DNA of 31,271 nt from a virus. Every line of letters begins with the position of its first letter. The first letter of the stretch is position 1. The translations under genes and the position numbers were made by a program. Below are positions 21,310-22,205 of the stretch, one piece after another. The notes under the pieces are model-generated. The model was not told the DNA's origin. It searched no databases and saw only the letters and a list, made by a program, of their open reading frames with translations. Location of the stretch: the IMG/VR virus record IMGVR_UViG_3300006166_000005, positions 1 through 31,271 of that record; one strand, given 5' to 3'.

Positions 21310-22107
21310 ATGACAAGTATTATTGACCCAAAAGAATTTACAGACGTGGTGACCGAATTGAGGTCATTTTTTTTGTCTAAAAATTTTTATGAGGTGCACA
21401 CCCAGAATAGATTAAGTATCCTTGCTGCCTGTGAAGATCCAGAAACAGTAGCAGTATATAATTACGGTGGTAATGTGTGGCCCCTACCTCAGACAGGTCA
21501 GATGTGGTTAGAATATGAATTGTTAAACAACCCCAAAGCAGAGGGGTTTTTCTGTGTCTCCACGTCGTATAGGGCAGAGCCTAACCCAGTACCAGGTAGA
21601 CATGAAACCATCTTCCCCATGTTTGAGTTTGAAATGAAGGGTGGTGTGAAGGAACTGGAAGATATGGAGAAAGAATTGTGTGAATGGTTAGGTATCCCAT
21701 TGAGTCTATCTAACATTAAGACCTATGCTGAGTGGGGTGACAAGTATAAGGTGAAGGAACTTGATCATGGTCATGAGTCTGCTATCAAAAGAGGTATGAT
21801 TACTGACTTCCCTGAATGGACATCACCATTCTGGAACATGGCAAGGAATGATGATGGTACCAGTAGGAAGATAGATGTCATCCTAGGTGGTATGGAGACC
21901 ATAGGTAGTGCCGAACGTAGCACCAATGTAGATGAGATGAGAACCACCTTCCATACTATCTCTGATGGTGGGTATGCTCAGTTACTCTATAGAAAATTTG
22001 GCAAAGAAAGAGTCGAAGCAGAACTAGATGAGTTCTTAGACTTCGACTTCTTCCCTCGCAGTGGGGGTGGAATAGGTATCACTCGTCTGATATCAGCCCT
22101 GAAATAG
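21310..22107 (+). CDS. Stand-alone class II aminoacyl-tRNA-synthetase-like enzyme (Asn/Asp type core)
   Basis: The 265-residue product is a class II catalytic core without an anticodon-binding domain. Motif 2 is S86-Y-R-A-E with GRHETIFPMFEFEM (86-110), and the Y/FRAE form is like AsnRS. GGMETIGSAER at 193-203 matches the GG-x-E-x-x-GS-x-R segment of AsnRS/AspRS. Motif 3 is GGGIGITRL at 252-260 with the ATP-binding Arg259. QTGQMWLE at 61-68 matches the sQLylE region. Stand-alone cores of this kind include archaeal asparagine synthetase related to AsnRS, AsnA and the EF-P ligase. It could charge a tRNA, make asparagine or modify a protein. The adjacent GUU tRNA makes an Asn-related role attractive. 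Confidence 0.8.
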   Translation: MTSIIDPKEFTDVVTELRSFFLSKNFYEVHTQNRLSILAACEDPETVAVYNYGGNVWPLPQTGQMWLEYELLNNPKAEGFFCVSTSYRAEPNPVPGRHETIFPMFEFEMKGGVKELEDMEKELCEWLGIPLSLSNIKTYAEWGDKYKVKELDHGHESAIKRGMITDFPEWTSPFWNMARNDDGTSRKIDVILGGMETIGSAERSTNVDEMRTTFHTISDGGYAQLLYRKFGKERVEAELDEFLDFDFFPRSGGGIGITRLISALK

Positions 22108-22111
22108 GGCT
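22095..22111 (+). other. Stem-loop at the synthetase-like gene end
   Basis: AGCCCT/AGGGCT forms a 6-bp perfect stem with loop GAAAT, spanning the TAG stop codon and ending 5 bases before the tRNA 5' end. There is no T-run, so processing of the mRNA-tRNA transcript is a likelier use than termination. Confidence 0.5.
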
Positions 22112-22115
22112 TCAA

Positions 22116-22205
22116 TGTGAGGTGACGAAACTGGTAAACGTGGCAAGCTGTTTCCTTGCTGATTCCTTTGCGGGGGTCTTGGTGGTTCGACTCCACCCCT
22201 CACAG
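22116..22205 (+). tRNA. tRNA with GUU (Asn) anticodon and a long class II variable arm
   Basis: Hand folding gives a 7-bp acceptor stem TGTGAGG/CCTCACA with discriminator G22205, and a 3-bp D stem ACG/CGT with GG in the loop. The anticodon stem is GCAAG/CTTGC with loop CTGTTTC (anticodon GTT at 22150-22152). A 21-nt variable arm can form a 6-bp stem (22161-22166 with 22173-22178, two G-U pairs). The T stem is GGTGG/CCACC with loop TTCGACT. U1-A72, G73 and GUU are Asn-like. The three-pair D stem and long variable arm are Leu/Ser-like. Position 37 is U, where a purine is nearly universal. CCA is not encoded. The isotype is therefore uncertain. Confidence 0.82.

Follow-up and report, generated by a model that had tools for sequence, protein, structure and literature searches.

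An AsnRS-type catalytic core and an unusual class II tRNA are inherited as a pair in marine cyanophages, with a possible role outside the ribosome

The window analysed here is the whole 31,271-nt stretch of a 31-kb virus record, in which the neighbour genes are of the T4-like cyanophage type. The locus under study contains the following features:

21282..21288, plus strand: candidate T4-type late promoter box CTAAATA, common to the enzyme and the tRNA (comparison of 82 cyanophage loci)
21310..22107, plus strand: stand-alone AsnRS-type class II catalytic core, 265 aa (PF00152, phrog_29758, fold, tree and alignment)
22116..22205, plus strand: dedicated class II tRNA with anticodon GUU, U37, G73 and U1-A72, no CCA encoded (ARAGORN; model R1, 95 bits; covariation)
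22150..22153, plus strand: anticodon G34 U35 U36 followed by U37 (GUUU), invariant in 53 distinct cyanophage tRNAs
22160..22180, plus strand: long variable arm of 21 nt, a class II feature (tRNA sequence comparison)

The open reading frame matches PF00152, the class II D, K and N synthetases, over residues 11-264 (E 3.6e-13), and its residues 1-264 give a full-length profile match (3.2e-157) to PHROG 29758, a family of unknown function that is also T4-GC 194. Homologues in the cyanophages P-SSM2, P-SSM5 and P-SSM7 are 78-79% identical to the window enzyme, and their sole annotation is 'tRNA ligase'. Sullivan et al. 2010 list T4-GC 194 under that name as a table entry present in 2 of 16 cyanophages, and we found no discussion of the gene in that paper beyond the table (PMC3037559). 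Our literature search, which covered sources other than subscription papers and preprints, returned this table entry and no paper on the enzyme family, the tRNA type or the pair.

Across 97 aligned relatives, motif 2 (R88, E90 and H98) and motif 3 (G256 and R259) are invariant, as are L67, E68 and R203 (97/97 enzyme sequences). An AlphaFold2 model that used 97 relatives as input reached a mean pLDDT of 93 and a pTM of 0.91, and its residues 1-265 superpose on AsnRS cores as a catalytic core only. As the whole modelled chain is catalytic core, the enzyme has no anticodon-binding domain; the N-terminal OB-fold that serves this function in AsnRS is absent from the 265-aa chain. The Pfam match, the invariant residues and the model together uphold the description given in an earlier, sequence-only reading of this DNA, in which the core keeps motifs 2 and 3 and has lost the anticodon-binding domain. 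Given this domain content, the enzyme itself is unlikely to read GUU.

The nearest solved fold is the core of human AsnRS (Z 26.5, 241 residues, 2.2 A), followed by AspRS (Z 25.0), archaeal asparagine synthetase A (3reu, Z 23.8) and then LysRS and GenX (22.7). Profile searches gave AsnRS 2xgt (9.6e-13), AspRS (about 6e-7) and, weakly, asparagine synthetase A (3p8t, 2e-4). In addition, the stretch Q61-T-G-Q-M-W-L-E68 aligns ungapped to AsnRS 'QSSQLYLE', for which the AspRS counterpart is 'QSPQLYK'. From these similarities we infer that the amino acid bound is Asn rather than Asp, and the enzyme likely activates Asn. It resembles the AsnRS catalytic core in fold, in motifs 2 and 3 and in the ungapped Q-x-x-Q-x-x-L-E stretch; it differs in lacking the anticodon-binding domain, in having a class II tRNA as its partner and in scoring far under the cut-offs of the curated AsnRS models (TIGR00457, 20 of 342.6 bits; NF003037, 22.2 of 414 bits).

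As its main alternative, the sequence-only reading named a free archaeal-type asparagine synthetase (AS-A, AsnA); were this the case, the tRNA would lie beside it by chance. Archaeal AS-AR (3p8t/3reu) is, like the phage enzyme, a stand-alone core of similar length for which ATP-dependent activation of an amino acid is expected, so that size, domain content, the fold score to 3reu and the weak profile match to 3p8t all fit such an assignment. However, the comparison with AsnRS and AS-AR structures that the same reading had suggested placed the AsnRS cores nearest and AS-A farther away, the L67-E68 pocket is of the AsnRS type, and the assignment to the family finds no support in the NCBIfam asparagine synthetase A model (NF005055, 15 bits vs a cut-off of 389). 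The phage enzyme is thus lower in structural and profile similarity to AS-AR and lies under its family cut-offs, and chance linkage to the tRNA is excluded by the reverse search described below. AS-AR has, to our knowledge, no tRNA partner. We consider a free synthetase of this kind very unlikely. The phage enzyme also resembles the lone-core aaRS paralogues that work outside translation (EpmA/GenX, AsnA) in its re-use of the core, and we know of none among them with a co-inherited tRNA gene.

A single tRNA, with anticodon GUU, was predicted in the window by ARAGORN; it begins 8 nt after the stop codon of the enzyme gene, where the sequence-only reading had placed it. To characterize this RNA, we compared 53 distinct tRNAs from cyanophage loci, all of which (53/53) have 7 acceptor, 5 anticodon-stem and 5 T-stem pairs. 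U1-A72, G73, G34-U35-U36 and U37 are invariant in this set, and the variable region measures 14-29 nt, unlike the short class I loop of tRNA-Asn. The tRNAs therefore share the cloverleaf, GUU and G73 with tRNA-Asn and lack its short variable loop and its combination of purine 37 with U33. Covariation analysis showed 99.9% of cells paired and changes on both sides in 19 of 24 pairs, a signal far above shuffled and slid controls; as judged by this comparison of sequences, the tRNA is under strong structural selection. In our own reading the D arm (GAAA-YTGG-TAAAC) is like that of class II tRNA-Leu, hence the body would be Leu-like.

A class II body raises the question of which amino acid the tRNA carries. 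Both the long variable arm and G73 are known SerRS signals, and a change from A73 to G73 can convert a Leu tRNA into a Ser acceptor (PMC9976931, PMC7609411), so host SerRS, which recognises class II tRNAs with G73, might serylate this tRNA for insertion or delivery of serine. Serine charging gives no reason for the invariant GUU or GUC and U1-A72, and leaves the AsnRS-like partner without a role; it is the least probable of the readings weighed here. The transplantable bacterial Asn identity set consists of the anticodon and G73, and the Asp-tRNA-Asn amidotransferase reads the U1-A72 pair (PMC9976931). As the tRNA bears this identity set, host AsnRS could charge it.

The anticodon loop departs from that of ordinary tRNAs. 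Of the 53 distinct cyanophage tRNAs, 42 have U and 11 have C at base 33; the window tRNA keeps U33 and has U37 in place of a purine, and the argument that it does not decode therefore rests on U37. Among 244 other distinct tRNAs of the fetched loci, which served as a control, 98% have a purine at position 37 and 96% have T33. The t6A modification is impossible when U36 is followed by U37, and loss of U33 is unusual in a decoding tRNA. The tRNA is likely not a normal decoder.

A translational role would nevertheless be a simple explanation of the locus: the enzyme would charge the tRNA with Asn for reading AAC/AAU in late phage messages, while the odd loop would shield it from host tRNA-Asn nucleases and the class II body would exclude host synthetases. 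Against this explanation, U37 leaves no room for t6A and G, C or A can stand at base 33, which makes for poor decoding, and the pyrimidine links of the enzyme family (below) are left unexplained. Together with the class II body and the pyrimidine neighbourhood, U37 and the variable base 33 speak against a simple extra Asn decoder. In its favour are late expression alongside virion genes, the full cloverleaf with G73 and a GUU anticodon, the fact that this is the only tRNA of P-SSM2 (PMC3037559), and the precedent of phages that bring tRNAs escaping host tRNA cleavage (PMC12409363). We regard a translation cassette as doubtful.

To assess whether the two genes belong together, we examined a cyanophage set of 80 of at least 599 IMG/VR relatives, the isolate loci and the window, with a tRNA-finding step that did not require U37. 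The special tRNA follows the enzyme in 82/82 cyanophage loci with enough sequence, at a spacing of 7-11 nt in 80 and 88-90 nt in 2, an outcome that answers the check on co-occurrence and spacing proposed from the sequence. Loci in which ARAGORN missed the tRNA or made an odd call (Lys, ???) were considered as true exceptions and rejected, as the same tRNA is present in the sequence or the contig ends. Overall, hundreds of marine phage sequences carry the enzyme, almost always followed by the odd tRNA.

We then approached the linkage from the other side, searching viral contigs with a DNA pattern for a class II tRNA in which positions 34-37 are GUYU and the D-loop is GGYAGAC, a form absent from the cyanophage tRNAs. 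This pattern, which holds no enzyme information, found at least 120 stretches, and among the matches listed 117 are proper cloverleaves. Within these listed matches the enzyme accompanies 102 of the 117 tRNAs and is in every case (102/102) upstream on the same strand, 16-374 nt away (median 35). G73 occurs in 117/117 although the pattern left base 73 free, and base 33 is G, C or A in 12/117 (again among the matches listed). For eight of the 15 tRNAs without an enzyme the contig breaks off just upstream, and the others are mostly GUC versions. Contigs that carry the special tRNA and no enzyme (L336, L389, L311, L325, L348 and L354) mostly have GUC, and the two with the GUU version are 195 kb and 141 kb long. 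Chance linkage is ruled out by this reverse search, on which the case for a functional pair rests most strongly. The two genes are co-inherited whichever of them the search starts from; this strongly supports the dedicated enzyme and tRNA pair suggested by the sequence-only reading, and points firmly to selection as what has preserved the pair in many marine phages. The interpretation given in that reading is supported in part: it had overlooked that the tRNA is of class II, has U37 and belongs to a set that varies at position 33, and that relatives of the enzyme lie among pyrimidine genes.

The shared late promoter that had been proposed is a weaker case in the window, where the CTAAATA box by itself is not above chance, than across loci. 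Relative to the enzyme start, TAAATA, the T4-type late promoter core, occupies -26 to -30 in 81/82 cyanophage loci, vs 1 in a same-size stretch further upstream used as a control, and it is absent from the first 12 nt between the enzyme stop and the tRNA in these loci. This placement makes late co-transcription of the enzyme and the tRNA likely.

To place the enzyme in a wider context, we scanned GTDB genomes and recovered 125 relatives, the best 80 of 125 at 41-51% identity. The cellular relatives are scattered across DPANN archaea, Patescibacteria, Dependentiae, Chlamydiota, Bacteroidota and Proteobacteria. In a tree of 153 sequences, the cyanophage enzymes form one clade (100); close to it (94) are enzymes of Pasteurella, Rhodospirillaceae and Bandiella whose genes have pyr neighbours. 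The tRNA-linked members occupy separate branches (cyanophages; L155 and L225; L183/L199/L171; L187), so the partnership with a tRNA arose more than once or was often lost. With most cellular and jumbo-phage members the special tRNA was not detectable, in cell genomes with a pattern whose wide gap admits very long variable arms; the enzyme therefore cannot need the tRNA everywhere. Frequent occurrence of the enzyme in phages without such a tRNA, which the sequence-only reading had named as grounds for refuting the pair, is indeed seen outside the tRNA-linked clades, where many phages and cells have the enzyme alone. High-scoring R1 matches in the cell genomes checked were mostly rejected as ordinary tRNA-Leu, the exceptions being L155/L247 and L252. 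In two Chitinophagales genomes the enzyme lies in a pyr cluster and a chromosomal class II GUC-U37 tRNA with a very long variable arm lies on another contig (L252:1501-1615, the same as L414:8760-8874, and L417).

A search for the special tRNA in the huge phages LR756501 and LR756508 returned only Leu-type and other ordinary tRNAs. In a 735-kb phage, a structured RNA of about 85 nt with a 7-bp closing stem precedes the enzyme gene (L004:7833-7917), and a relative has the same type of RNA (L086, about 2858-2946). We rejected the RNA upstream of the LR756501 gene as an equivalent of the tRNA, as it is without a T arm and had no Rfam match; its folding is only modestly better than that of shuffles (z -1.6).

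The genes surrounding the cellular enzymes point to pyrimidine metabolism. Homologues of pyrE/pyrF or pyrD lie within 3 kb of 25 cellular members and one phage member; counted separately, pyrE/pyrF homologues are near 25 enzyme loci (24 cellular, one phage) and pyrD homologues near 13 (examples among GTDB loci L088-L167: L095:2953-4886, L105:2983-5279 and L117:2018-5824). NCBIfam models confirmed the pyrE, pyrF and pyrD neighbours in most cases tested. Among 30 enzyme-bearing genomes we found PyrF in 22 (19 over cut-off), CarB in 3, PyrB in 6 (3 over cut-off) and PyrC in 7 (2 over cut-off; search without TIGR00856). CarB, PyrB and PyrC are all missing in 10 of the 19 genomes with a confident PyrF, and two enzyme-bearing genomes carry most of the CarB/PyrB/PyrC set. 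In the complete genome of Pasteurella atlantica neither CarB nor PyrC had a match, and the sole PyrB-like match was below threshold. As most of the 30 genomes are incomplete and TIGR00856, the E. coli-type PyrC family, lay outside the search, the CarB/PyrB/PyrC gap is suggestive rather than proven.

A related gene occurs in the phages, as pyrE lies inside five cyanophage loci. Its close relatives among 50,697 phage records are in P-SSM2, P-SSM5, P-SSM7 and six marine single-cell virus contigs, against a comparison set of about 450 records with a close cobS typical of T4-like cyanophages. The cultured cyanophages with this pyrE are exactly P-SSM2, P-SSM5 and P-SSM7, which are also the cultured ones with the enzyme, a co-occurrence that represents two independent cultured lineages. 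A second, Pasteurella-type phosphoribosyltransferase is present in about ten non-cyanophage loci and does not reach the pyrE family model, and one 150-kb enzyme-bearing contig gave no match to PF00156 (phosphoribosyltransferase). From its neighbourhoods the cellular enzyme family is a candidate for a missing enzyme of pyrimidine synthesis. It is plausible that the enzyme product feeds this pathway, since genomes that carry the family often yielded no CarAB, PyrB or PyrC.

The enzyme could be a purely metabolic ligase, for asparagine or dihydroorotate synthesis, that needs no tRNA, with the tRNA a separate, host-charged carrier or regulator travelling along. The cellular members in pyr clusters with no special tRNA nearby, the lack of an anticodon-binding domain and the contigs on which the tRNA stands alone are all consistent with this; on the other hand, a shared function seems needed to account for how very closely tRNA and enzyme are linked in several branches. 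We judge a tRNA-independent ligase to be improbable.

Starting from a pair that co-inheritance establishes, with Asn binding, charging and product inferred, we tentatively favour a late cassette of a minimal AsnRS-type enzyme and a private tRNA, in which Asn would be activated and used outside the ribosome, feeding pyrimidine synthesis; this is a possibility to which we give somewhat less than even weight. The two genes would be expressed late as one cassette. Acting with the tRNA, the enzyme would activate Asn with ATP in its AsnRS-type pocket (Q61-T-G-Q-M-W-L-E68, R203). The tRNA would combine the Asn identity set (GUU, G73) with a Leu-like body, without the features of a good decoder, and may serve outside the ribosome as an amino-acid carrier or specificity partner. 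As the enzyme has no anticodon-binding domain, the conservation of GUU needs another explanation. The output would enter pyrimidine synthesis, as suggested by the cellular relatives and by pyrE in the same phages. One possible scheme is a single step from Asn, bicarbonate and ATP to dihydroorotate, bridging the missing CarAB, PyrB and PyrC; what the tRNA would do in this scheme is its least certain part. In a bolder and unlikely extension, the aaRS core and the non-decoding class II tRNA would form a two-part enzyme in which Asn, held or directed by the tRNA, is turned into dihydroorotate, replacing CarAB, PyrB and PyrC in many uncultured bacteria and letting phages raise the nucleotide supply.

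Among known systems, PylRS/tRNA-Pyl, mainly in the form without PylSn, resembles the phage pair in joining a compact class II core to a private, odd tRNA that is not recognised through its anticodon. PylRS belongs to another aaRS subclass, however, and tRNA-Pyl decodes and has a short variable arm, whereas the phage tRNA has a long arm and a loop unfit for decoding. Allo-tRNAs and selC-like tRNAs likewise have class II bodies with unexpected anticodons. Their lengthened acceptor stem (8/4 or 9/3) is not found in the phage tRNAs (7-bp acceptor and 5-bp T stem in 53/53), which differ in these normal 7/5 stems, in combining an Asn anticodon with G73, in having U37 and in their link to a synthetase core. 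Hundreds of marine phage sequences would carry, in these genes, a natural enzyme-tRNA pair that seems to have been made for work away from the ribosome. If the pyrimidine link holds, the enzyme would also be the one that closes a gap in the de novo pyrimidine pathway of many uncultured bacteria. The class II tRNA, which has Asn identity, and the small synthetase core that accompanies it may also be of use as an orthogonal pair.

Some observations concern the annotation and surroundings of these tRNA genes. The deposited coordinates of the P-SSM2 tRNA-Asn (AY939844.2, 164094-164179) disagree with the sequence: the tRNA is at L002:3813-3900, vs the annotated 5825-5910, directly after the 'tRNA ligase' gene and matching the locus-tag order. 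A P-SSM7 tRNA annotated as Leu (UAA; L001:2871-2943) is, oddly, of class I and lacks the long variable arm that one expects of a tRNA-Leu. Four enzyme-bearing contigs (L269, L270, L278 and L283) carry other phage tRNAs of unusual length (86-94 nt) with Gln, Met or Pro anticodons. Neighbours vary between phage groups, and we found no conserved third gene beside all pairs. In 12 loci of the cyanophage and tRNA-pattern sets, a Nfu-like (Fe-S scaffold) gene lies directly after the tRNA (about 0.2 kb).
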